DNA from: Ptiloglossa arizonensis
Lineage: Eukaryota > Arthropoda > Insecta > Hymenoptera > Colletidae
Length of the DNA stretch: 64,000 bases
Direction of reading: 5' to 3'
Assembly (NCBI RefSeq): GCF_051014685.1
Contig: NC_135055.1
Location: 6,250,001 to 6,314,000 of the forward strand
This document shows positions 7,161 through 57,140 of the stretch, one piece after another. The notes beneath the pieces are model-generated. The model did not search any database, was not told where the DNA came from, and saw only the letters and a list, made by a program, of their open reading frames with translations. The stretch's first letter is position 1. The number at the start of each line of letters is the position of its first letter. A program made the position numbers and the translations under genes.

Positions 7161-8706
7161 ACCTAAAATCGTAAATTGTTAAGCAGTGTTCATTTCACGT
7201 ATTTTGTATCTTAATAATAGTTGTTCTTTTTTCGATAATAAAGTTTTCTACTAGAACAAATTTATTCCACAATCTCAATTTATTTTCTTATGTGGAATCA
7301 TTCCTCTGGGTATCATCCTATATTTTAATATTATTAGTAGTATACCTAATATCCAAAATATATTAGGTATATTATATACCTAAGCTTATATATATTCCTA
7401 TACAGAGTGTTTCACTTAAACAAGATCACAAAAAAACGATTCGTATTTATTATTGTATAAAAACATTTTAGAACGAAGTTACACTATTTCAAAGGGCACA
7501 TGTAACGGTGGAATGAATTTCTTTTTAGAGACATTTTTTAATGAAATTTCAAGGTCATAGGTGTTTTGCAACGATTCCATTTACCAAGGTACTTTGTATA
7601 TTAGCTTGTTCGATCAGTTTTGTTGTTTTTTCCATTGTGAAAAAATACTATGACAGTTGAACTTTGACACAACCGTGAATATACAAACGAGTCGACAGAT
7701 CTGCACGAAACTTCACACATGTTCATCGAACAGTAGTACCATCTTTAGAAAAATAAAACTTAGCTCCATTTCCTATCGAACGAAAAAACTTAAGCAACCC
7801 ATTATACATTGTCTCTAGCGATCAGGGAACGTTCACAAAGCCTACTTGAACATTTCCGATCCATCGATTCTACTTCGAGTGACATTCCGATGAAAGTAGG
7901 TGACTCCTAATTTTAAGGAGTCCAACGTCCCGAAATAGTACGATATAAGTAACCAACGAATCGATAACCTCTCTCCTGCACCATTTTGCTATCGGAGCAA
8001 ATTGGATCGACTGTTCAGTAACTCTTTCGAAATTGTTCCAATTGCAAACTAAAACATCGGTATACATTTTAAATCCATTTGTTCGCCTCTAATATTTCGT
8101 GTACGTATTTTTAAATATTATCCGTGGTGAAATTTGAATCCGGAGCCTTGTAATTTACCTCGACGCGATGTGACGGGAGTCACTGCACCAAATTAGGCGG
8201 CAAAAGGTTCAAGCAACGCGAACAACGCCGAAAGAAAAACGACCAAGATGGATCTCGTGGACCTGTAAAGGGCGACGTTCGGCTTCTTTGATTATGTGAT
8301 TATTCGAGCTATTATTAACGTAATCAGCGTTGTTCCGTCGTAGTAAATGGGGGGATGCATCGCGAATCTGGTTTGAGACGCATCGCTGGAATTATTGTGG
8401 GATACATACATAGTAGCATCGTCAATTACGGCAAACAGCGAAACCATCCGCGGGGAATCGGGCGAAATTACAGGCGGCGGTGATTCGATTTCTCGATCGG
8501 AAATGACGGGGCCAGGGGTTCTTGCGGAAACATCCGGGGAGAGATTGAGATCGTTGCCGCGACGGAACCTCGAATTTCAATGTTCAGTTTTCGTTCGATT
8601 CTTTCTTCCATCTTAACGTACTGAATAGTGGACCAGTTGCCAGAGCCAAGTTAATTCTTCAAAGTAACAATTAGGAGCGATTATTTCATTTTACCGGACG
8701 TGAACA
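7161..8706. other. AT-rich spacer then mixed block, no gene
   Basis: Bases 7161-8140 are AT-rich. Bases 8140-8640 are more balanced and CpG-containing. At 7403-7413 the sequence CAGAGTGTTTC resembles the AGGGTGT-type ends of degraded arthropod repeats, but no partner end was found. No supported gene. Confidence 0.5.
7341..7371. repeat. 12-bp perfect inverted repeat
   Basis: TATACCTAATAT (7341-7352) pairs with ATATTAGGTATA (7360-7371) around the loop CCAAAAT. A further TATACCTAAG follows at about 7376, so the motif is locally repeated. Confidence 0.8.
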
Positions 8707-9870
8707 CGGAAAGGAAATTTTATAATTAATTCTATCGATTGTATCCAATTTTTGGACGAACCTCTACAATATTTACCAATGCCAGATTCGTTTGTACTTA
8801 CAAATGATTATTTAATACGGAAAGGAAATTTTATAATTAATTCTATCGATTGTATTGAATTTTTGGACGAACCTCTACAATATTTACTAATGCCAGATTC
8901 GTTTGTACTTACAAATGATTATTTAATACGGAAAGGAAATTTTATAATTAATTCTATCGATTGTATCCAACTTTTGGACGAACCTCTACAATATTTACTA
9001 ATGCCAGATTCGTTTGTAATTACAAATGATTATTTAAGACGGAAAGGAAATTTTATAATTAATTCTATGGATTATATCCAATTTTTGGACGAACCTCTAC
9101 AATATTTACCAATGCCAGATTCGTTTGTACTTACAAATGATTATTTAATACGGAAAGGAAATTTTATAATTAATTTTATCGATTGTATCCAACTTTTGGA
9201 CGAACCTCTACAATATTTACTAATGCCAGATTCGTTTGTAATTAAAAATGATTATTTAATACGGAAAGGAAATTTTATAATTAATTCTATGGATTATATC
9301 CAATTTTTGGACGAACCTCTACAATATTTACTAATGCCAGATTCGTTTGTAATTAAAAATGATTATTTAAGACGGAAAGGAAATTTTATAATTAATTCTA
9401 TGGATTATATCCAATTTTTGGACGAACCTCTACAATATTTACTAATGCCAGATTCGTTTGTAATTACAAATGATTATTTAATACGGAAAGGAAATTTTAT
9501 AATTAATTCTGTCGATTGTATTGAATTTTTGGACGAACCTCTACAATATTTACTAATGCCAGATTCGTTTGTAATTAAAAATGATTATTTAATACAGAAA
9601 GGAAATTTTATAATTAATTCTATGGATTATATCCAATTTTTGGACGAACCTCTACAATATTTACCAATGCCAGATTCGTTTGTAATTAATTAAAAATGAT
9701 TATTTAATACGGAAAGGAAATTTTATAATTAATTCTATCGATTGTATTGAATTTTTGGACGAACCTCTACAATATTTACTAACGCCAGATTCGTTCGTAA
9801 TTATGAATGAATATTTAACACGAGAAGGAAAACCTATAATTAGTTCAATCGATTATATCCAATTTTCAAA
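8707..9870. repeat. 111-bp tandem array with long open frame
   Basis: GGACGAACCTCTAC recurs at 8754, 8865, 8976, 9087, 9198, 9309, 9420, 9531, 9642 and 9757. The spacing is exactly 111 bp until a 4-bp insertion in the ninth copy makes the last step 115. The tenth copy is diverged and the array fades by 9870. Because 111 is divisible by three, one frame stays open for 313 codons (8752-9693), reading DEPLQYL.MPDSFV per unit. That frame has an in-frame TGA at 8701 and opens at TTG, and nearly all differences between copies change the amino acid. I therefore read it as non-coding satellite DNA. Confidence 0.92.
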
Positions 9871-11558: not shown

Positions 11559-11811
11559 TTTGGCGGCGGTTTGAAGATGTTTAAGGTAGGAGAGAACGGA
11601 AATAGGAAAAGGAAGTGGGGATAAGCGTTTCATCCCGGGCCTGCTAGTGGACTCGTCAGTAAGGCATCCTAGCAGGCTCTGCCTTATACGCCGGGACATT
11701 GGAAGATCGGTAAGAGGTCGTATATATAGCGATCGGAGCAGGTACGGGAACTTGCGGGAAACGGTTGATGGTGAGTTTCCCTCTGGTGGCAAACGTGGGT
11801 AGTGCCGCCAC
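11559..11811 (-). mobile_element. Candidate ~250-bp element carrying a hammerhead
   Basis: This non-satellite segment interrupts the array. Its left end reads TTTGGCGGCGG and the reverse complement of its right end reads GTGGCGGCAC, sharing TGGCGGC. It is bracketed by ATATT at 11554-11558 and 11812-11816, which could be a target-site duplication. The satellite context (GCTAAAATATT before, AAATACTATTAA after) fits an insertion into a monomer. On the minus strand a TATATATA stretch (11721-11728) lies about 40 nt upstream of the ribozyme cleavage site. The boundaries are inferred from short matches and could be wrong. The relationship to retrozymes or other ribozyme-bearing elements is unknown. 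Confidence 0.45.
11625..11691 (-). ncRNA. Hammerhead self-cleaving ribozyme (stem III open)
   Basis: Read on the minus strand, all core elements of a hammerhead are present in order. Stem III 5' strand is GCGU (11691-11688). The cleavage-site nucleotide A is at 11687. Stem I is UAAGGCA (11686-11680) paired perfectly with UGCCUUA (11666-11660). The core CUGACGA is at 11659-11653. Stem II is GUCC (11652-11649) paired with GGAU (11635-11632). GAAA is at 11631-11628, and stem III closes with ACGC (11628-11625, sharing the last A of GAAA). The invariant core residues C3, U4, G5, A6, G8, A9, G12, A13, A14, the A15.1-U16.1 pair and a permitted H17 (A) are all there. Loop I holds CCUGCUAG (11676-11669) and loop II holds CUAGCAGG (11647-11640), perfectly complementary, as expected for the loop-loop contact of active natural hammerheads. 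Weak points are a G-U pair closing stem II and a stem III of only 4-5 bp. Expected activity is cleavage 3' of 11687, leaving a 2',3'-cyclic phosphate and a 5'-OH. Confidence 0.85.
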
Positions 11812-12042: not shown

Positions 12043-12320
12043 GGACCAGAATCGAAAAGGTTAAGTGGAAATGCTTAAATAATATTAAGGAACCAGAATC
12101 TTTGAAGAGGCTGAGTAACCTCAATCTAACCTATAGCTAGATACTATTAAGGCCTCAGAATTCTTGAAAGTGTTAAGTAAAAACTCTTAAATATTATTAG
12201 GAAACCAGAATTCTTGAAGAGGTTGAATAAAAATCCTTAAACACTACTAAGAAACCAGAATCCTCAAAGAGGCCAAGTAAAAGCCTTTGAATTCTATCAA
12301 GTAACTTAAATATTAAATAA

Positions 12321-13705
12321 TTATTAAGGGACCAGAATCCCTGAAGAGGTTAAGTAGAAACGCTTAAACACTATTGGGAAACCAGAATTCTCAAGGAGGT
12401 CAAATAAAAGGGCTTAAATTCTATCAAGGAACCAGAATCCTCAAAGAGGCCAAGTAAAAGCCTTTGAATTCTATCAAGTAACTTAAATATTAAATAATTA
12501 TTAAGGGACCAGAATTCCTGAAGAGGTTAAGTAGAAACGCTTAAACACTATTGGGAAACCAGAATTCTCAAGGAGGTCAAATAAAAGGGCTTAAATTCTA
12601 TCAAGAAACCAGAATCCTCAAAGAGGCCAAGTAAAAGCCTTTGAATTCTATCAAGTAACTTAAATATTAAATAATTATTAAGGGACCAGAATCCCTGAAG
12701 AGGTTAAGTAGAAACGCTTAAACACTATTGGGAAACCAGAATTCTCAAGGAGGTCAAATAAAAGGGCTTAAATTCTATCAAGGAACCAGAATCCTCAAAG
12801 AGGCCAAGTAAAAGCCTTTGGATTCTATCAAGTAACTTAAATATTAAATAATTATTAAGGGACCAGAATTCCTGAAGAGGTTAAGTAGAAACGCTTGAAC
12901 ACTATTGGGAAACCAGAATTCTCAAGGAGGTCAAATAAAAGGGCTTAAATTCTATCAAGGAACCAGAATCCTCAAAGAGGCCAAGTAAAAGCCTTTGGAT
13001 TCTATCAAGTAACTTAAATATTAAATAATTATTAAGGGACCAGAATTCCTGAAGAGGTTAAGTAGAAACGCTTGAACACTATTGGGAAACCAGAATTCTC
13101 AAGGAGGTCAAATAAAAGGGCTTAAATTCTATCAAGGAACCAGAATCCTCAAAGAGGCCAAGTAAAAGCCTTTGGATTCTATCAAGTAACTTAAATATTA
13201 AATAATTATTAAGGGACCAGAATTCCTGAAGAGGTTAAGTAGAAACGCTTGAACACTATTGGGAAACCAGAATTCTCAAGGAGGTCAAATAAAAGGGCTT
13301 AAATTCTATCAAGGAACCAGAATCCTCAAAGAGGCCAAGTAAAAGCCTTTGGATTCTATCAAGTAACTTAAATATTAAATAATTATTAAGGGACCAGAAT
13401 TCCTGAAGAGGTTAAGTAGAAACGCTTGAACACTATTGGGAAACCAGAATTCTCAAGGAGGTCAAATAAAAGGGCTTAAATTCTATCAAGGAACCAGAAT
13501 CCTCAAAGAGGCCAAGTAAAAGCCTTTGGATTCTATCAAGTAACTTAAATATTAAATAATTATTAAGGGACCAGAATTCCTGAAGAGGTTAAGTAGAAAC
13601 GCTTAAACACTATTGGGAAACCAGAATTCTCAAGGAGGTCAAATAAAAGGGCTTAAATTCTATCAAGAAACCAGAATCCTCAAAGAGGTCAAGTAAGTAT
13701 GCATA
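12321..13705. repeat. Homogenised 177-bp trimer block, eight copies
   Basis: This is the uniform part of the array. Each unit comprises three related submonomers. Units 4-7 share CTTGAACACT where units 1-3 and 8 have CTTAAACACT, so point variants spread in blocks of neighbouring copies. Confidence 0.9.
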
Positions 13706-17119: not shown

Positions 17120-19250
17120 TTTAAAGGACGTCCATCGATTCAATTATGCTGTACATCGAAAGACAAGATTGTGCTCCAGAATTTGTTTGGAGCTCGTTCC
17201 TTTCAATTTTGTAATTTATTCGTTAAGAGCTCCTATACCGACGCTCCGAGCAATCCCTTGAGTTTCACGATTGCAAAAGACTATTTTCTCAAATATAATT
17301 TTTCTATCTGCACTGTTCTGTAACTATGTAATTTATCAGGGGGGGGGGGGGGCAATATTGTGCCCCAGAATTCGTTTAGAGCTCGTTCCTTTCAATTCTG
17401 TAAGTTATTCGTTAAGAGCCCCTACACCTACGCTTCGGACAATCCCTTGATTTTAATGAGTGCAAAAGATAATTATTTCACATATCACACAATATCATTT
17501 TTGTACCTTGTTCTCCAATTATGCAATTCATTTATTTATTTATTTATCGGGTAAGAACCCTTTGATACACAAAATATCTACAAATAATTAAACTTCATTT
17601 GAATTAAAAAGATGAAATAAGTGTTTCGAGAAGTCTTCATACGAAGCTAAAAAATTGAAACGGATGTAATAATTATTCACAGTATTTATAATACAGTTTA
17701 TACCAATTAAGTTGGCAAAGAGAGAGAAGTGAACCTGTTGATGAAGAAGAACTCAATTCCTCGTAGTAATCACATAACAACTTTTTATGAATAGCGAACA
17801 GATTTCCGAGGATGCGACCAAGTTATGTATTGCTTTTAGAGGAGGGGGCAATATTGTGCTCCAGAATTCGTTTGGAGCACGTTCCTTTCAATTCTCTAAT
17901 TTATTCGTTAAGAGCCCCTACAACCACGCTTCGAGCAATCTCTTAATTTTGGCAAGTACAAAAGACAATTATCTCAAATATCTCATGAAGGTCATTTATA
18001 TACCTTGTTTTCCAATTACGCAATTTATCAGAAAAGGTGAGACTATATTGTGCTCCAGAATTTGTTTAAAGCTCGTTCCTTTCAATTCTCTAATTTATTC
18101 GTTAAGAGCCCCTACACTTACGCTTGGGGCAATCCCTTGATTTTAACGAGTGCAATAGAAAATGATCTCACATTACTCACGATATCATTCCTTTACCTTG
18201 TTCTCCAATTATACAATTTATCAGAGTAGGGGAGGCAATATTGTCCTCCAGAATTCGTTTGGAGCTCGTTCCTTTCAATTCTCTAATTTACTCGTTAAAA
18301 GTCCCTACACCCACGCTTCGGGAAATCCCTTGCTTTTAATGATTGCAAAAGAAAATGATCTCACATTACTCACAATATCATTTCTGTACCTTGTTCTCCA
18401 ATTATTTAATTTATCAGGGGAGGGAAGGCAATATTGTCCTCCAGAATTCGTTTGGAGCTCGTTCCTTTCAATTCTCTAATTTATTCGTTAAGAGCCCCTA
18501 CACCTACGCTTCGGACAATCTCTTAATTTTGGCAAGTACAAAAGACAATTATCTCAAATATCTCATGAAGGTCATTTATATACCTTGTTTCCCAATTACG
18601 CAATTTATCAGAAAAGGTGAGACTATATTGTGCTCCAGAATTTGTTTAAAGCTCGTTCCTTTCAATTCTCTAATTTATTCGTTAAGAGCCCCTACACTTA
18701 CGCTTGGGGCAATCCCTTGATTTTAACGAGTGCAATAGAAAATGATCTCACATTACTCACGATATCATTCCTTTACCTTGTTCTCCAATTATACAATTTA
18801 TCAGAGTAGGGGAGGCAATATTGTCCTCCAGAATTCGTTTGGAGCTCGTTCCTTTCAATTCTCTAATTTACTCGTTAAAAGTCCCTACACCCACGCTTCG
18901 GGAAATCCCTTGCTTTTAATGATTGCAAAAGAAAATGATCTCACATTACTCACAATATCATTTCTGTACCTTGTTCTCCAATTATTTAATTTATCAGGGG
19001 AGGGAAGGCAATATTGTCCTCCAGAATTCGTTTGGAGCTCGTTCCTTTCAATTCTCTAATTTATTCGTTAAGAGCCCCTACACCTACGCTTCGGACAATC
19101 CCTTGCTTTTAACGAGTGCAATAGAAAATGATCTCACATTACTCACAATATCATTTCTCTACCTTGTTCTCCAATTATGCAATTTCTCAGCGCAGAAGGT
19201 GCACGAATCCCCAGAATTCGCTTAGAGCTCGTTCCTTCAAGTTCCGTAAT
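17120..19250. repeat. 193-bp array with 580-bp higher-order duplication
   Basis: CCAGAATT anchors lie at 17176, 17365, 17861, 18055, 18248, 18441, 18635, 18828, 19021 and 19211. After a ~275-bp interruption (17560-17835) the spacing is 190-194 bp. Bases ~17880-18460 and ~18460-19040 are almost identical blocks of three units (580 bp, 193 x 3), so a recent tandem duplication copied a trimer. Several open frames are therefore duplicated verbatim; they are repeat artefacts. A TTTATTTATTTA run sits at 17526-17545. Confidence 0.93.
17339..17352. repeat. G14 homopolymer inside the array
   Basis: Fourteen consecutive G replace the GGGGAGGGAAGG or AGGGGAGG spacer found at the same place in other units. 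This may be a slippage expansion, or it may be unreliable in the assembly. Confidence 0.85.
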
Positions 19251-20155
19251 TTATTCCACGAAAATCGGTCCCGAACGTTGCGTGATCCCCGCCGCGCTTT
19301 TTCGGCGACGCGTCGCGATTCGTTCGCGAGATATTTCGCCGCAAGAAGATCGGTAATGCGAATACTTTTTGCGGCCACTGTATGCGTGCCAACAATTGCA
19401 TCGCCGGGATCTTGCGGGAAGTGGTTTCGAGTCGAAAATCGCCGCGATAAACCACGCGAGCGGGCGATTACCAGCCTTCGAACCAGCCGGAAAGGACGCT
19501 GTCCCGTGGTCGTTAATTTTATACGCGGATCGCGTATAAAATATCAGAAATTGATAGTTAACGGGGCGCTGGGAATTTTTCGCGAACGGTTCTTTCGACC
19601 GTGGCGAGTCTGTGCCCCCCATTGGTACCCCTCTCCTAAAGATCGTCTCGCGAGATAAGATTTTCGGAGCGAAGGAATCGCCCGATTAAAAGCACAGGCG
19701 AGTTTACGGATGCTCGCGGCCGCGAATCCTGGCGGCGTATAAATTTCGCGGTAAACAATTAGCGAGCGCCAGTGGATCCCTAAGCGGGGGGGGTGGGGGA
19801 GACGCGCGAGCGAACGAACGAACGAGCGAGCGAACGCGCTCGCGCGAATGTGTGTCAATCGAAAGCCGGTTTCTAGGTGGCGTCCAGCATCAACGACCGA
19901 CGATTTTCAGCGTGGAATTAATGGGGGATCGTTAACATCGCGGTGTAATTGCGTGTTTTACGCAGCCCGGCTGCGCGTCGACTGTTAATGCTTGTCGTTA
20001 ATACGGCCGCGTAATAACGGGCCAACGGGGGCTATTGACACATCGAATCGGCGCTGATTAACGTCGTTATTTATCTATTTCCCTTTTGGCACGGGAACGT
20101 TCTACACACGGTTCGATGTAATGGATGGGGTTCGACCGGCCATAGTAAAATCTCA
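19251..20155. other. CpG-rich block abutting the 193-bp array
   Basis: The block is strongly CpG-rich. Open frames on both strands are arginine-rich and match nothing I recognise. A CGAA/CGAG microsatellite occupies 19805-19846, preceded by a G-rich run at 19785-19799. No exon can be defined. Confidence 0.5.
19805..19846. repeat. (CGAA/CGAG)n microsatellite
   Basis: This is a tetranucleotide repeat of GCGAACGAACGA type that grades into GCGCTCGCGCG. Confidence 0.85.
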
Positions 20156-26757: not shown

Positions 26758-27985
26758 CATCATTGTTAATGCTTTCTTTCGAAGTAGGGAAATTTATTTT
26801 ATCTTGTGTAGTCAATTTTTTAGAGAATTTATTCTTTTCCGAGTATGGTCGGTTGTAAGTCGTTGGTACAAACACAAGTTAGTGCTTCCTTTCAAGCTCG
26901 GGAAATTTATTTTAGATAATGAAGTTTTTAGAGAATATTATTCTTTTCCGAGTATGGTCGGTTGTAAGTCGTTTGTACAAACACAAGTTAGTACTTCCTT
27001 TCAAGGTCGGGAAATTTATTTTAGCTAGTGAATTTTTTAAAGAATATTATTTCTTTTCAGTACGGTCGGTTGTAAGTCGTTGGTACAAACACAAGTTAGT
27101 GCTTCCTTTCAAGGTCGGGAAATTTATTTTAGCTAGTGAATTTTTTAGAGAATATTATTTCTTTTCAGTACGGTCGGTTGTAAGTCGTTGGTACAAACAC
27201 AAGTTAGTGCTTCTTTTCGAGGTAAAGAAATTTAGTTTTCTTTCTGGTGTAGTTAAGTTTTTGCAGAATATTTTTTTCCAGTATGGTCGGTTGCGAGTCG
27301 TACTTACAAGCACAAGTTAATGCTTTCTCTCGAGGAAGGGAAATTAATTTTAGCTAGTGAATTTTTTAGAGAATATTATTTTTTTCAGTACGGTCGGTTG
27401 TAAGTCGTAGATACAAGAACGAGTGAATGCTTTCTTTCGAAGTAGGGAAATTTATTTTATCTTGTGTAGTTAATTTTTTAGAGAATATTATTTTTTTCGA
27501 GTAAAGTCGGTTGTAGGTCGTTGCTACAAACACAAGTTAGTGCTTCCTTTCGAGGTAAAGAAATTTAGTTTTCTTTCTGGTGTAGTTAAGTTTTTGCAGA
27601 ATATTTTTTTCGAGTATGGTCGGTTGCGGGTTGTACTTACAAGCACAAGTTAATGCTTTCTCTCGAGGAAGGGAAATTAATTTTAGCTAGTGAATTTTTT
27701 AGAGAATATTATTTCTTTTCAGTACGGTCGGTTGTAAGTCGTAGATACAAGAACGAGTGAATGCTTTCTTTCGAAGTAGGGAAATTTATTTTATCTTGTG
27801 TAGTCAAATTTTTAGAGAATATTATTTCTTTTCAGTGCGGTTGGTTGTAAGTCGTTGCTACAAACACAAGTTAGTGCTTCCTTTCAAGGTAGGGAAATTT
27901 AGTTTTCTTTCTGGTGTAGTTAATGTTTTGGAGAACATTTTTTTCGAGTATGGTCGGTTGTGAGTCGTAGATTCAAGGAAGCTGC
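26758..27985. repeat. 108/113-bp array, eleven copies, 333-bp superunit
   Basis: GGTTG..AGTCGT anchors lie at 26851, 26960, 27068, 27176, 27289, 27396, 27509, 27622, 27730, 27843 and 27956. Two unit lengths alternate (107-109 and 113 bp). Units carry TTTTAGCTAGTGAA, TTTTATCTTGTGTAG or TTTTCTTTCTGGTG variants. The order of variants repeats every ~333 bp (107+113+113) between 27207 and 27880, which shows a higher-order trimer. Confidence 0.93.
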
Positions 27986-29739: not shown

Positions 29740-30410
29740 TCTATAAACCTAATTATAAATATTTAACCGTAACAAAATATTCTATACCGTCGATACATTT
29801 TCAACTCCAAAATGGCACCACTGGGGGTTAATATAACTCACAAAGTCACGCATTCCTCAGAAACTTCTATCACTCGTGTTTCGAACCTTTTTAATTACTT
29901 TCCTCCCCATTTATTATCATTTCTTCCTTTTTTCGAGTTTTTAACCGAGATTTCAGCATCATCTCAGGTTCGAAGTCCAGTATCTAATCCACCTGTGCCT
30001 GGAGTCTCGATTATCGGGTGGTCGTATGTAACAGATCGTCGATTGTTCGCTAGTCACTCCTACGAAAACGATTTCTCCGGGGCTAATCAGCGGTAATTAT
30101 CTTCCCGACGAAGAGAGAAGCGAGGCGTGCGTGTAGCGATGCTCTTGGATAGAAAGGAGCTATTAGACACGAGAGTGAACGATCGACGATAAAGTGTCCA
30201 CGAGGCTCGAATACTCGAATCTCGGTGGGGTCATAGGTGATCGAAGCGTTATCTCGGAAGGCGGTTGAGCCGGAACAGGAGTGGCGTACTCGGAAACACC
30301 TCCGTCGGTATTTTCTTTTCCCTTATACGCGAGGCGGATCGAGGCTGATCCATAACGAGAGACGCCGCGAGATGCGTTTCTCCGCGCGGGGCACACTGGG
30401 CCCAGGAATC
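29740..30410. other. Spacer and CpG-rich block
   Basis: Bases 29740-29960 are AT-rich. Bases 29960-30410 are balanced to GC-rich. Open frames are short and unrecognised. Confidence 0.45.
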
Positions 30411-31850
30411 ATTCCCAGCGTGGCGAAGATAGTCAACTGACTTCGATGAGTAGTTGAGAACGTAAGGAAATATTCAATAAGTAATTTCTTCGATGCTCGA
30501 ATGATAATGGTGAAAATTATTTAAATTACAATTGTGATAAGTATTGCACGCGCGCGAGAAAATTGCATCTGAGTTAGAAATTCATTCCTAGGGTGGCGAA
30601 GATAGTCAACTGACTTCGATGAGTGGTTGAGAACGTAAGGAAATATTCAATAAGTAATTTCTTCGATGCTCGAATTATAATGGTGAAAATTATTTAAATT
30701 ACAATTGTGATAAGTATTGTATGCGCGCGAGAAAATTGCATCTGAGTTAGAAATTTATTCCTAGGGTGGTCTAGATAATCAACTGACTTCGATGAGTAGT
30801 CGAGAACGTAAGGAAATATTCAATAAGTAATTTCTTCGATGCTCGAATTATAATGGTGAAAATTATTTAAATTACAATTGTGATAAGTATTGCACGCGCG
30901 CGAGAAAATTGCATCTGAGTTAGAAATTCATTCCTAGGGTGGCGAAGATAGTCAACTGACTTCGATGAGTAGTTGAGAACGTAAGGAAATATTCAGTAAG
31001 TAATTTTTTCGATGCCCGAATTATAATGGTAAATATTATTTACAATTATGATAAGTACTGTACGCGCGCGAGAAAATTGCATCTGAGCTGAAAATTTATT
31101 CCTAGAGTGGCCTAGATAATCAACTGACTTCGATGAGTAGTTGAGAACGTAAGGAAATATTCAATAAGTAATTTCTTCGTTGCTCGAATTATAATGGTGA
31201 AAATTATTTAAATTACAATTGTGATAAGTATTGCACGCGCGCGAGAAAATTGCATCTGAGTTAGAAATTCATTCCTAGGGTGGCGAAGATAGTCAACTGA
31301 CTTCGATGAGTGGTTGAGAACGTAAGGAAATATTCAGTAAGTAATTTCTTCGATGCTCGAATTATAATGGTAAATATTATTTACTTATCATAATTACAAT
31401 TATGATAAGTACTGTACGCTCGCGAGAAAATTGCATCTGAGCTGAAAATTTATTCCTAACGTGGCCTAGATAGTCAACTGGCTTCGATGAGTAGTTGAGA
31501 ACGTAAAGAAATATTCAATAAGTAATTTCTTTGATGTCTGGATGATAAATATTATTTAAATTATAATTATAATAAATATTCAAAAATAACTTTTTCTATA
31601 TTCGAGTAATAATGGTGAATATTATTTAAATCACAATTCTAATATATACTGTACGCGCGCGAAAAGATTGCATCTAAGCCCAAACTTCATTCCTAGTGTG
31701 ACGAAGATGGTCGACTGACTTCAATGAGGATTTAAGAACGCAGAAAAATTTGTAATAAGTAATCTTTTAAGCATTACTAAAATTATAATGTTGATATGTA
31801 TAGTACGTACGCGAGAAGATTGCACTTGAAGTAGTCACGGGTCCTAATTG
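30411..31850. repeat. 173-bp tandem array with alternating variants
   Basis: GATA.TCAACTGAC anchors lie at 30428, 30601, 30774, 30947, 31115, 31288 and 31469, and a diverged one at 31706. Spacings are 173, 173, 173, 168, 173, 181 and 237 bp. From the third copy on, units alternate between GTGGCGAAGATAG-type and GTGG(T/C)CTAGATA-type starts, which indicates a dimeric superunit of about 345 bp. Each unit has a CGCGCGCGAG stretch. The right end is strongly diverged. Confidence 0.93.
31383..31410. repeat. 13-bp perfect palindrome inside the array
   Basis: ACTTATCATAATT (31383-31395) and AATTATGATAAGT (31398-31410) are separated by only AC. Sister copies have only the right half, so one unit acquired an inverted copy of its own sequence. 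Confidence 0.85.
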
Positions 31851-34889: not shown

Positions 34890-36080
34890 TCTAGAGTCTA
34901 TTGTAGGGAGAAAAGAAGATCATCTTTGCGGAATGCCTGAATCAAGTGGATCGTGGTACTATAAGTGAATAGAATGTAGAGAGTCATTTTTAGTTGGGAA
35001 CAGATCTCAGAAATTCTAACTGATATATCTGTCCCGATACCACTCGCTATTCTTACTAGGACTGATTCTTTTTTCTTCCATGAATACAATATCTAAGTAG
35101 AATATAGACAGTGTCAAACAATCTCTTCCTAGCCAAAATGGTAAGAAAATTTCATCTAAAACACCTGACACAATACCACTTGCATTTCTTATTAGGATTA
35201 ATTCTTCTTTCTCCCATGAATACATTGTGTAAGTAGAATGTAGATAGTGTCGGGTAATTATTTCCTAATCACAAACCTCCAAAATGCTATGTAAAACCTC
35301 TATTCCAATACCACTCGCAGTTAGTACTAAAACTGATTCCTTTTTCTCCCATGAATACAATATCTAAGTAGAATATAGACAGTGTCGAGTAATTTTTTCC
35401 TAACCACAGACCTCCAAAATCCTGTCTAAAACACCTGACCCAATACCACTTGCATTTCTTATTAGGATTGATTCTTCTTTCTCCCATGAATACATTGTGT
35501 AAGTAGAATGTAGATAGTGTCGGGTAATTATTTCCTAATCACAAACCTCCAAAATGCTATGTAAAACCTCTAATCCAATACCACTCGCAGTCAGTACCAA
35601 AACTGATTCCTTTTTCTCCCATGAATACAATATCTAAGTAGAATATAGACAGTGTCGAGTAATTTTTTCCTACCCACAGACCTCCAAAATCCTGTCTAAA
35701 ACACCTGATCCAATACCACTTGCATTTCTTATTAGAATTAATTCTTCTTTCTCCCATGAATACAATGTGTAAATAGAATGTATAATAGATAGTGTCGGGT
35801 AATTATTTCCTAATCTCAAACCTCCAAAATGCTATGTAAAACTTCTAATCCAATACCACTCGTAGTTAGTACTAAAACTGATTCCTTTTTCTCCCATGAA
35901 TACAATATCTAAGTAGAATATAGACAGCGTCGAGTAATTATTTCCTAATCACAAACCTCCAAAATGCTATGTAAAATCTCTAATCCAATACCACTCGTAG
36001 TTACTACTAAAACTGCTTCTTTTTTCTCCCATGAATATATTGAATAATTAAAATATATACAGTGTCGAATCATTTTTACT
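34890..36080. repeat. 135-bp array with 270-bp dimer structure
   Basis: ATGAATA anchors lie at 35080, 35216, 35351, 35486, 35621, 35756, 35896 and 36031, spaced 135 bp apart (136 and 140 once each). Odd and even units differ consistently (CTAAAACACCTGA versus ATGTAAAACCTCTA), so the superunit is 270 bp. Repeated minus-strand frames reading MGERRIN.NKKCKWYW are a consequence of the period being a multiple of three. The leftmost unit is diverged. Confidence 0.93.
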
Positions 36081-47544: not shown

Positions 47545-48300
47545 TACCTTCCAGTATCTACCACTACCTGGGAGTTTGATCCAGAGTTACCAAACCTATC
47601 TAAACTATCCTAGACTCCAGTCACCAGCAGATGCAGGGATGATCTTTTCTGCAGTTGTTTAACAGACCCATTGAGGATATATATAACCCGTATCTCTTAC
47701 TACAGAAGTATTTACCAGTATCAGGAGGTTTGACCAGGAGTAACTAGACTTCTCTAGGCGACCAAAAACTTCAGTCTCGAACAGTTGCAGGGATGATCTT
47801 TTCTGCAGTTGTTTAACAGACCCATAGAGGATATACATGACCCGTATCTCTTACTATAGAAGTATTTACCAGTATCAGGAGGTTTGACCCGGAGTAACTA
47901 GACTTCTCTAGGCGACCGTAGACTTCAGTCTCTAGCAGTTGCAGGGATGATCCTTTCTGCAGTTGTTTAACAGACCCATCGAGGATCTATATGACCCGTA
48001 TCTCTTACTACAGAAGTATTTACCAGTATCAGGAGGTTTGACCTGGAGTAACTAGACTTCTCTAGACGACCGTAGACTTCAGCCTCCAGCAGTTGCAGAG
48101 ATGATCTTTTCTGCAGTTGTTTAACAGACCCATCGAGGATGTATATGACCCGTATCTCTTACTACAGAAGTATTTACCAGTATCAGGAGGTTTGACCAGG
48201 AGTAACTAGACTTCTCTAGGCGACCGTAGACTTCAGTCTCCAGCAATTGCAGGGATGATTTTTTCTGTTGATGTTCAACAGACTCGTAAAGGATACGAAT
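47545..48300. repeat. 154-bp tandem array, five copies
   Basis: TGCAGGGATGAT-type anchors lie at 47633, 47787, 47941, 48095 and 48249, exactly 154 bp apart. Conserved words include TTCTGCAGTTGTTTAACAGA and GTATTTACCAGTATCAGGAG. The first and last copies are the most diverged. Confidence 0.95.
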
Positions 48301-50519: not shown

Positions 50520-50703
50520 CATTCCCAAAACTCCACGAAATATCGAATGCCTCCTCGACTATCACATTTCCTAAGAATCCCAGTAAATGGAATACCTCCT
50601 CAGCGATCATGTTCTCCTGATACCAACTCCCGAGATCGACGAAAAATTTTAACGAAAGTTCAGAAACTCGTTTGAAAATCCCGCGAAATTCCAATTCGCG
50701 GAA

Positions 50704-50730
50704 ATTCTTGGAATTGTCAATTCCAAGAAT
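50704..50730. repeat. 12-bp perfect palindrome in left arm
   Basis: ATTCTTGGAATT and AATTCCAAGAAT flank GTC. This nested palindrome is absent from the right arm. Confidence 0.85.
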
Positions 50731-50824
50731 CAGTGAAATCGTGCCACCTCCTCGATTATCATGTTCTCCTGATATCAAAAGTCCAAACATCTGAAATTTT
50801 CTAAAATTCTTACTCGATTCTCAC

Positions 50825-50894
50825 ACTTTGGTATCAGGAGAACATGACAGCCGAGGAGGTATTCGTATCGTGCCACTTCTAGGAAATGACGTCA
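50825..50894 (+). repeat. Inner left arm of palindrome (70 bp)
   Basis: This arm matches the reverse complement of 51118-51187 at 67 of 70 positions, counted by eye. Confidence 0.9.
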
Positions 50895-51125
50895 GTTCCA
50901 GGAAATTTCGAAAATTCTTAGAAATGACGTCAGTTCCAGGAAATTCCGAAAATTCTTAGAAGAAATGATGTCAGTTCCGGGAAATTTCGAAAATTCTCAG
51001 AAATGACGTCAGTTCCAGGAAATTCCGAAAATTCTCAGAAATGACGTCAGTTCCAGGAAATTCCGAAAATTCTCAGAAATAACGTCAGTTCCAGGAAATT
51101 CCGAATGTTCTCAGAAATGACGTCA
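50887..51125. promoter_or_regulatory. 38-bp array of CRE palindromes (TGACGTCA)
   Basis: Seven units of GACGTCAGTTCCAGGAAATT plus CCGAAAATTCTCAGAAAT-like sequence occupy the palindrome's loop. TGACGTCA, the full CRE bound by CREB/ATF bZIP factors, is intact at 50887, 50925, 51004, 51042 and 51118. Single-base variants TGATGTCA and TAACGTCA occur at 50966 and 51080. Spacing is 38 bp, except one step of 41 bp. The match to the CRE is observed. Binding or regulation is inference, and the array may be only a minisatellite. Confidence 0.45.
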
Positions 51126-51187
51126 TTTCTTGGAAGTGGCACGATACGAATACCTCCTCGGCTCTCATGTTCTCCTGATACCAAAGT
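51118..51187 (-). repeat. Inner right arm of palindrome (70 bp)
   Basis: This is the reverse complement of 50825-50894 with three mismatches. Confidence 0.9.
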
Positions 51188-51390
51188 CTGAATTTCTGAC
51201 AAAAATTTTCGAAAATTTCCAATTTTCGGAGTTTTGGTTTCAAGAGAACATGATAACCGTGGAGGTGGCATTGTGTCGCGGATTCTTGGATTTTTCGTCG
51301 ATTTTAAGACTTTGGTATCAGGAGAACATGATCGCCGAGGAGATATTCCTATTCCACGAATTCTTAGAAACGACGCCATCTTCAAGAAAT

Positions 51391-52414: not shown

Positions 52415-53235
52415 CATATTAATTAATTCTTTCTAAGCGTGCAAACATTCGTATCCAACACCTACACTCAATATGACAACGTCTACCGTGTATAAATGAT
52501 AATATACTACTACCAATTATTTTCGTACTTAACTTGGCTCTACAACTCATGAATCATCGATTTCAATTGTACAGTATACGAAATTAATCTTTTCCAAACG
52601 TACAAAAATTGGTACCAAACATCTACACACAACATGAAAACGTTTGTTATATATAAATACTAGTACTCTCCTACCAATTATATTCGTACCGAATTTAGTT
52701 CTCCAATTCGTGAATCATTAATTTCAATTGTACAGTATGCGAAATTAATCTTTTCCAAACGTACAAAAATTCATACCAAACACCTACACACAACATGAAA
52801 ATATTTGTTATATATAAATACTAGTACTCTCCTACCAATAATATCCGTACCAAATTTAGTTTTCCAATTCGTGAATCATTAATTTCAATTGTACAGTATA
52901 CGAAATTAATCTTTTCCAAACGTACAAAAATTCATACCAAACACCTACACACAACATGAAAATATTTGTTATATACAAATACTAGTACTCTCCCACCAAT
53001 TATATTCGTACCGAATTTAGTTCTCCAATTCGTGAATCATTAATTTCAATTGTACAGTATACGAAATTAATCTTTTCCAAACATACAAAAATTCATACCA
53101 AACACCTACACACAACATGAAAACGTTTGTTATATATAAATACTAGTACTCTCCTACCAATAATATCCGTACCTAATTTGGTTCTCCAATTCGCGAAACA
53201 ACGATTTCGATCTCACACTGTGTAAAATTAGTTCA
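52415..53235. repeat. 161-bp tandem array, five copies
   Basis: TTTCCAAACGTAC anchors lie at 52591, 52752 and 52913, with a variant at 53074 and a diverged first copy at 52431, spaced 160-161 bp. Units share CACCTACACACAACATGAAA and TACTAGTACTCTCC. The right edge merges into a CpG-rich block. Confidence 0.93.
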
Positions 53236-55199: not shown

Positions 55200-56320
55200 C
55201 ACAGTGAGATTCCCAGAAACATGGTCGAAATTCAAAATTCTGATATATAGATTTATTGTTGTTCTCAACACGGAATTGACTAAGAAAAATTAAATAATTT
55301 TGGTGGTATGATTGTGAAGCTCATCAGAGTGAGATTTCCAGAAACATGGTCGAAATTCAAAATTCTGGTATATAGATTTATTATTGTTCTCAACACGGAA
55401 TTGACTAAGAAAAATTAAATAATTTTGATGATATGAATGTGAAGCTCATCAGAGTGAGATTTCCAGAAACATGGTCGAAATTCAACATTCTGGTATATAG
55501 ATTTACTGATGTTATTAACATGGAATTGACTAAGAAAAATTGAATAATTTTGGTGATATGATTGTGAAGCTCATCACAGTGAGATTTCCAGAAACATGGT
55601 CGAAATTCAAAATTCTGGTATATAGATTTATTGTTGTTATTAACACGAAATTGGCTAAGAAAAATTGAATAATTTTGGTGATATGATTGTGAAGCTCATC
55701 ACAGTGAGATTTCCAGAAACATGGTCGAAATTCAAAATTCTGGTACATAGATTTATCAATGTTCCTAACACGAAATTAACTAAGAAAAATTGAATAAATC
55801 TGGTGCTATGAATGTGAAACTCGCCACAGTGAGATTTCCAGATACCTAACTGAAATTCAAAATTCTACTATTATGTATAGATTTATCAATGTTCTCAACA
55901 CGAAATTAACTGAGAAAAATTCAATAAATCTAATGCTATGAATGTGGAGCTCCTCACAGTCAGATTCCCCGAAACGTGATTGTAATTAAAAATTGTAGTA
56001 TATAGATTTATCAATGTTCTCAACAGGAAATTAACTAACAAAATTTAAATCAACCTGGTTCCATGGACTGGTTTCGGTCCCGGAAAGCCCCCCACAATAG
56101 CATCCCCTAAAACGTGGACAAAATTCAAAATCTAAGCAATTGATTTATCAATATTCTCAACATGAAATTAGCGAATAAAAATTTGATCGATATGGTGCTA
56201 TGGATGTTCGGTCCCGAGAAGCCCCCACAACGGCATTCCCCGAAACGTGATTGAAATTCAAAATTCAAGCAGTCGATTTATCAATATTCTCAACATGAAT
56301 TAACAAAAATAAAATCGATT
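55200..56320. repeat. 125-bp tandem array, nine copies, degrading rightward
   Basis: GAGATTTCCAGAAACATGG anchors lie at 55206, 55331, 55456, 55581, 55706 and 55831, exactly 125 bp apart. Diverged copies follow at about 55961, 56099 and 56232. The left copies are nearly identical and the right ones have accumulated indels. The array begins immediately at the edge of the CpG-rich block. Confidence 0.95.
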
Positions 56321-57140
56321 CGATGATTCATTCATTATTCGATACGAATAACTAAACAAATTAAAAGGAAACTTTAAATAAAAGAAATTATTTAGCTATA
56401 ATCGAGTAACTGTGAAATGTTTGGAATAGGGGTCGAATTAATAACAATGACACCAAATAATATTCCCAAGATGTAGCGTGCTACCAAGCTTAAACGTTAT
56501 CTTTGTTGTTATAATTAATATTTCATTTATTCAAAGGAAATAAAAAAGCCTCTGATTTTTCAAGTTGTCCATTATATTACTCGTCCTGTAATAAATCGTT
56601 ATCAACCGTAGGATAAGATTAGTAATTTAAAGGAGTCATAAAATTCAGTATTGAGGTTAGTAATAACGGTCACAAGAGTTTATGTTAATCGCCATCTAGT
56701 GGTTTTTGCGGAAGATTTAACCTTTAACCGTTCGGATTTAAACACTGTTCATAAAGCCTCGAAGACAATCACAAGGGAATAAAATTTAACCTAAGAAAAA
56801 GAAAAGTACATTTCTCTGTGCAATGTGTATATTTATCCTACATTAATTTCATTAGTTGGTAAAAGAAAAATAAAATAGCTTCGCACATGGCGAACCGAAA
56901 AGTTCAAGCTCTGCTACTCGAGAAGGTTGAAAATAGTGTTTCAATAAATATTTTTTCCAAATACTTTTGCTGCTAATCGAATTTTGCGCACACCTACACA
57001 TTTAAAAAATACACATACCTTTTCTTGCTCAAAAAATATGAATTTATCAAAGAGAAGAATATAAAGAAAGCAGTATTATTTCTTTTAAACGCATCCCCTC
57101 CTAAACTGGCTCACCAAAAATTACCAAGCTCGTCTAATCT
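56321..57140. other. AT-rich spacer
   Basis: This is unique AT-rich sequence with one CTCF-like motif, described separately. No gene is supported. Confidence 0.5.
56690..56702 (-). promoter_or_regulatory. CTCF-like motif CCACTAGATGGCG
   Basis: On the minus strand CCACTAGATGGCG fits the CTCF core CCASYAGRKGGC at every position. CTCF exists in insects and acts as an insulator protein. A 12-bp match occurs by chance in large genomes and is also common in insect repeats, so function is uncertain. Confidence 0.3.

Follow-up and report, generated by a model that had tools for sequence, protein, structure and literature searches.

Anatomy of the hammerhead motif

The minus strand of the window (the whole stretch of 64 kb that was analysed) carries at 11691-11625 a sequence of 67 nt that reads GCGU-A-UAAGGCA-(13 nt)-UGCCUUA-CUGACGA-GUCC-(13 nt)-GGAU-GAA-ACGC, that is, the parts of a hammerhead in type III order, with stem III open and a hairpin on each of the other two stems. 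In the list below, stems and core come from the sequence reading and a descriptor scan, the loops from the sequence reading and a loop comparison, and the kissing strands from the loop comparison and folding.

11721..11728, minus: TATATATA, possible core promoter, 41 bases before the predicted cut (association only)
11692 with 11624, minus: extra outward pair of stem III, G-U
11688..11691, minus: stem III, 5' strand, GCGU
11687, minus: H17 = A, triplet GUA; predicted cut between 11687 and 11686
11680..11686, minus: stem I, 5' strand, UAAGGCA
11667..11679, minus: loop I, 13 nt, GAGCCUGCUAGGA
11669..11677, minus: putative kissing strand 1, GCCUGCUAG
11660..11666, minus: stem I, 3' strand, UGCCUUA
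11653..11659, minus: core CUGACGA, C at position 7
11649..11652, minus: stem II, 5' strand, GUCC
11636..11648, minus: loop II, 13 nt, ACUAGCAGGCCCG
11639..11647, minus: putative kissing strand 2, CUAGCAGGC
11632..11635, minus: stem II, 3' strand, GGAU; U11.1 wobbles with G10.1
11629..11631, minus: core GAA (12-14)
11625..11628, minus: stem III, 3' strand, ACGC

All the residues by which a type III core is recognised (CUGANGA, GAA, the A15.1-U16.1 pair and an H17 other than G) are present and in order, and stems I, II and III can form 7, 4 and 4-5 pairs in the descriptor scan, the fifth pair of stem III being the outer G-U. The original prediction had placed the core on this strand, at these coordinates and with a cut after A11687, and both the sequence reading and the descriptor scan bear it out on each point. 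Stem I, which it called perfectly paired, has 7 Watson-Crick pairs, and the loops, which it gave as 13 nt each with a complement extendable to 9, do match over 9 Watson-Crick pairs (11677-11669 with 11647-11639), where a loop-loop pseudoknot hammerhead calls for at least 4 bp of complementarity between loop I and loop II. The topology that it proposed, with stem III open, hairpins on I and II and a Watson-Crick complement between the two loops, is thereby supported. The one departure concerns stem II, which opens with a G-U wobble in place of G10.1-C11.1, a closing pair that is usual, as in the RF00008 consensus, and not absolute. The possibility that U11.1 arose from C11.1 by CpG decay was considered; we do not argue for it because CpG is over-represented in the window (observed/expected 1.455, at a G+C content of 41%). 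Base composition of this sort would suit a hymenopteran insect.

A search of the 64 kb with Rfam, the check suggested along with the original prediction, finds no family at its gathering score anywhere in the window. RF00008 (Hammerhead_3) is the sole ribozyme family listed, and it does match the span of the motif (11694-11622, minus strand), with 22.8 bits against a gathering score of 48.5; the E-value is 2.5 over 4227 families in 64 kb, or about 6e-4 for a single family by division. The description of the ribozyme as "intact" consequently needs qualifying, because of the G10.1-U11.1 wobble and of this low covariance score, even if the core itself is in order.

Surroundings of the motif in the window

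The motif lies inside a unique stretch of about 400-500 bp (its edges were placed by eye, and are diffuse by join scoring), flanked by degenerate 50-bp repeat units that run on into a tandem array at 12145-13696, with a 177-bp period and an inner 50-bp period. When the segment 11545-12055 (511 bp) is compared with the window by blastn, it matches itself and gives two short weak matches. The descriptor scan of both strands, limited to type III motifs with at least 4, 3 and 3 pairs in stems I, II and III, returns a single match in the window, the motif itself.

The octamer TATATATA upstream of the motif was noticed post hoc; 0.6% of stretches 30 bp long can be expected to hold its start. About 50 bp further upstream, at 11789-11779 on the minus strand, there is a CTCF-like sequence, CCACCAGAGGG; another, looser match to the motif occurs at 56702 on the same strand.

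The original prediction pointed out that hammerheads in animals are usually tied to retrozymes, Penelope-like elements or satellites. It might be proposed that the motif processes the RNA of a non-autonomous retroelement, retrozyme-like or Penelope-like, one copy of which happens to be here, a proposal compatible with a real hammerhead and agreeable both to the degenerate 50-bp units that flank the unique stretch and to the statement, in passages of PMC7229834, that most classical animal type I hammerheads sit in repeats. The window, however, lends no support to such a tie: the motif is present in one copy, with no second similar segment; its topology is type III and not type I; when two edge zones of 80 bp are compared, the longest direct repeat that they share is one 6-mer; and no reverse-transcriptase, integrase or transposase domain was found among 30 ORFs, which comprised 20 of the 55 with a length of 120 aa or more and 10 from a further list of 37, and for which the few Pfam rows were all below cut-off. 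We think that a retroelement of this kind has a rather small chance of being the explanation.

Its classical forms are rejected or weak as explanations of this window. In a retrozyme the hammerhead should recur at a distance of 150-800 bp, either through tandem copies or through a pair of long terminal repeats, and there is one copy in 64 kb; a Penelope-like element should carry a minimal type I hammerhead, which is the wrong topology, and an ORF for reverse transcriptase, a domain not seen in the 30 ORFs above. A recent insertion with target-site duplication is likewise rejected or weak: the stretch does have repeat units to its left and right, but its joins score diffusely and the edge zones share no direct repeat longer than the 6-mer. 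An HDV-like agent would have ribozymes on both strands together with a delta-antigen-like ORF; the type III motif is on one strand, and the 133-aa ORF that overlaps it has no Pfam match.

Rarity of the motif and comparison with other hammerheads

How often should such a motif be met by chance? A first-order Markov sequence of 40 Mb contained 7 loose matches and none with stems of (6,4,4). A larger simulation, conditioned on CTGANGA, of the same composition, restricted to type III and covering the equivalent of 10,054 Mb on one strand, produced 1037 matches at the loose level (I at least 4, II at least 3, III at least 3), 6 at (7,4,4) and 1 at (7,4,5). Counting both strands, the last two figures correspond to 7.6e-5 and 1.3e-5 per window, or to 0.36 and 0.06 per genome if the genome size is assumed to be 300 Mb. 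With 0.06-0.36 cores of this quality expected per genome, meeting one would not by itself be decisive if a whole genome were searched. The loop match of 9 bp adds a second, separate rarity. Matches of 9 or more occur in 1.35e-4 of 200,000 shuffled pairs of loops, and in 1.7e-4 of 200,000 window segments at equal spacing; among the 1037 simulated cores, 8 loop pairs were found in 4 and 9 in none.

These numbers bear directly on the possibility that we are looking at a chance or relict sequence, hammerhead-like, with an incidental inverted repeat (produced, for instance, by a template-switch mutation) and inactive now. The genome-wide expectation for the core, the low Rfam score and the wobble at 10.1/11.1 would all sit well with this hypothesis, which has, on the other hand, to account for two separate rarities in the same place, and for a loop match whose length no simulated core attained. 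We consider it unlikely.

For comparison we used scans of viral contigs, which yielded at least 301 pattern matches (a sample, over 254 loci), 143 of them with U7/C11.1, 19 with U7/U11.1 and 139 with C7/C11.1. Matches lacking a type III fold were dropped before counting, which left at least 55 distinct ones with stem I of at least 4 and stem III of at least 3 pairs (38 U7/C11.1, 2 U7/U11.1 and 15 C7/C11.1); a stricter set among the matches listed (stem I at least 5, stem III at least 4) comprises 48 motifs. Among the matches listed, a 7-pair stem I together with a 4-pair stem II is the most frequent arrangement for U7/C11.1 (14 of 38 motifs) and recurs in 3 of the 15 C7/C11.1 motifs, where 6/4 leads with 4. 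The cleavage triplet in the 48 stricter motifs among those listed is GTC in 36, GTA in 10 and GTT in 2; loop I measures 3-9 nt in all 48; a loop II of 3-7 nt is found in 45 of them and one of 14-21 nt in the remaining 3. The longest consecutive run of loop-loop pairs among the 55 type III motifs listed is 4, in one motif, and the 9-pair match is therefore without precedent among these listed matches. Seen against this set, the stems of the window motif are thus ordinary and its cleavage triplet is that of a minority, while stem II is closed by a wobble and the loops are unusual.

L133 and L146, two type III motifs of viral contigs whose stems are full, combine U11.1 with GUA; they come from a scan aimed at the wobble, so that no frequency is claimed for it; L146 also has a second hammerhead motif, with C11.1 and GUC. 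As for the double variant C7 + U11.1, none of its 13 viral-contig matches has a type III fold, and this speaks somewhat against activity.

The same viral-contig motifs help to judge the Rfam score. The comparison run covered 12 loci, mostly short, picked from 30 of the 48 stricter motifs, and gave 11 RF00008 matches in 10 of them, with scores of 25.6-49.2 bits (L089 and L040 had no RF00008 row). The 22.8 bits of the window motif fall below all of these; since just 1 of the 11 exceeds 48.5, it appears that good motifs often miss the cut-off.

Three DNA patterns brought up no relative. The DNA pattern of stem II and loop II has no match in the viral contigs, and a slightly looser version has 7 matches in genome contigs, none sharing stem I or loop I by eye. 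The stem I pattern has 2 viral-contig matches, neither a relative: one (L008) is a type II hammerhead (RF02276 motif), and the other (L009) has only a tRNA at gathering threshold. A hammerhead-like arrangement (CUGAUGA, GUCCC/GGGAC, GAAAC) was seen in passing on a Planctomycetota contig (L005:757-776), where no Rfam family matches at gathering threshold.

Turning to known systems, type I is described as the usual hammerhead form in animals in passages of PMC6155905, PMC7229834 and PMC7761336, and the last two assign type I hammerheads to animal retrozymes and Penelope-like elements. These resemble our case in that a hammerhead lies in an animal-type genome near tandem repeats, and differ from it in being type I, in tandem copies or in an element with reverse transcriptase (as the same passages of PMC7229834 and PMC7761336 have it), whereas the window motif is type III, has one copy in the window and lies near no such domain in the 30 ORFs tested.

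More to the point, type III pseudoknot hammerheads are reported, in passages of PMC7936874, from termite and dipteran genomes (including Drosophila pseudoobscura) and from HDV-like RNAs of toad and termite. The termite and dipteran ones are likewise type III, in an insect genome and with a Watson-Crick contact between loop I and loop II, and those of termites are isolated, with no recognisable ORF within 2 kb. It is to such isolated motifs, in termites and flies, that the window motif comes closest. In the toad and termite ones described there, the first stem has 5 bp, helix I contains an internal loop and bears an additional hairpin, stem II has 6 bp, and the contact amounts to 4 pairs (GCCR/YGGC), whereas ours has plain terminal loops of 13 nt, a 4-bp stem II and a contact of up to 9 pairs. 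According to the same passages, no extended motifs were reported in the hymenopterans searched, and among the papers that we judged, mostly from their titles, no title reports a hymenopteran type III hammerhead, which is not a proof of absence.

The other known forms are more distant or less specific. With RF00008 the window motif shares the core, the topology and the lengths of stems I and II, and it differs in its two 13-nt loops and in a score under the cut-off. In phages and bacteria, the pseudoknot hammerheads of type II (RF02276) also have a Watson-Crick pseudoknot involving loop I, but with another stem open and a contact to the strand after stem II, as described in passages of PMC3088659. 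In the pistol-like pseudoknot hammerhead with helix IV, described in passages of PMC11300833, a loop-pairing helix (6 bp in the crystal) holds the fold too; there the pseudoknot replaces helix II, whereas the window motif would join two ordinary hairpin loops. Pseudoknots between stems I and II are not exceptional in themselves: the relevant passages of PMC3088659 put them at probably about 40% of hammerheads, describe one of 5 pairs in a human intron hammerhead motif, and show by mutation that one of 6 pairs is needed for speed in a type II construct.

Folding of the loops and interpretation

The hammerhead (hairpins on stems I and II, with stem III) is not the minimum-energy nested fold of the sequence. 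That fold, at -21.2 kcal/mol (z-score -1.26), is built on a hairpin between the two loop strands, and in unconstrained nested folding this 9-bp hairpin has pair probabilities of 0.70-1.0 and stem III of 0.92-0.98, whereas those of stems I and II are 0.0. The nested hammerhead comes to -11.2 kcal/mol and stem I alone to -7.6, and the 9-bp kissing duplex is worth -15.7 before any pseudoknot penalty. If both loops are barred from other pairing, the predicted nested fold does have stems I and II; with the loops tied up, an alternative beats stem III by 0.2 kcal/mol.

One may then ask whether the nine complementary bases mainly form this hairpin, which would break stems I and II and silence the ribozyme except where the kiss is favoured by the kinetics of folding, by a protein or by another RNA. 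Such a trap or switch is compatible with a real hammerhead, and it finds some encouragement in the minimum-energy fold and in the closeness of the two folds once the nested hammerhead and the unpenalised kissing duplex are considered together. Moreover, among 8 prefixes of the RNA, stem I is predicted at 33, 40, 45 and 50 nt, and the minimum-energy fold loses it from 54 nt. The kiss, however, requires no rearrangement after stem I has formed, and, as the pairs of the hairpin are also those of the kiss, the choice between them lies beyond energy models that leave pseudoknots out. We would regard a predominant hairpin as improbable. Since this reading and that of a retroelement are both compatible with our main one, the odds that we attach to them overlap. 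Since the nine pairs stabilise the inactive hairpin too, a "fast, tertiary-stabilised" ribozyme and "selection" for it, both put forward in the original prediction, are at this stage inferences.

We think that a genomic type III hammerhead ribozyme is the likely explanation of the locus, with some way to go to certainty. It is probably a real type III hammerhead, isolated in the window and not within any retroelement that we could recognise there, and an unusual variant by reason of its long kissing loops, and it is likely, though not assured, to be active. The analysis establishes the sequence with its possible pairing, its topology and its rarity; transcription, the kissing fold, cleavage and a biological role are inferred. 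In an RNA from the minus strand, stem I would fold first and stem II next; the two large loops could then zip together by up to 9 Watson-Crick pairs (possibly fewer, for steric reasons) and so keep the two stems alongside each other. The RNA would cut itself after A11687, leaving a 2',3'-cyclic phosphate and a 5'-OH end. If transcription were to depend on TATATATA, which starts 41 bases before the cut, the cut would fall near the 5' end of the transcript, and trimming of the 5' leader would be one possible role. A more elaborate version, in which a single-copy type III hammerhead was kept in a hymenopteran genome with its 9-bp helix acting as a switch (kiss on, hairpin off) that regulates 5'-end trimming near a TATA box, is, in our opinion, quite a long shot.

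If active, the ribozyme would put a type III hammerhead in an insect lineage for which one structure search, in the passages of PMC7936874 cited above, gives none of the extended kind, and its loop-loop contact would exceed the 4-6 pairs described in the literature passages considered here. It would also offer a clean test of the length of kissing helix that the hammerhead fold tolerates, and of whether long loops speed cleavage or trap the RNA.

The window is rich in repeats of other kinds as well. A tandem repeat of 111 bp (37 codons), in about 10 copies, occupies 8704-9866 and has within it, at 8704-9693, a 329-aa open frame whose Pfam matches are below the cut-offs. Nested inverted repeats, with arms of up to 243 nt at 79%, are present at 50568-51388, where matches to microRNA models are below cut-off. 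Minisatellites whose periods range from 107 to 233 bp form at least 8 more arrays, such as those at 17847-19256, 26765-27968, 30409-31536, 35037-36068, 47611-48295, 52421-53197 and 55200-56050.
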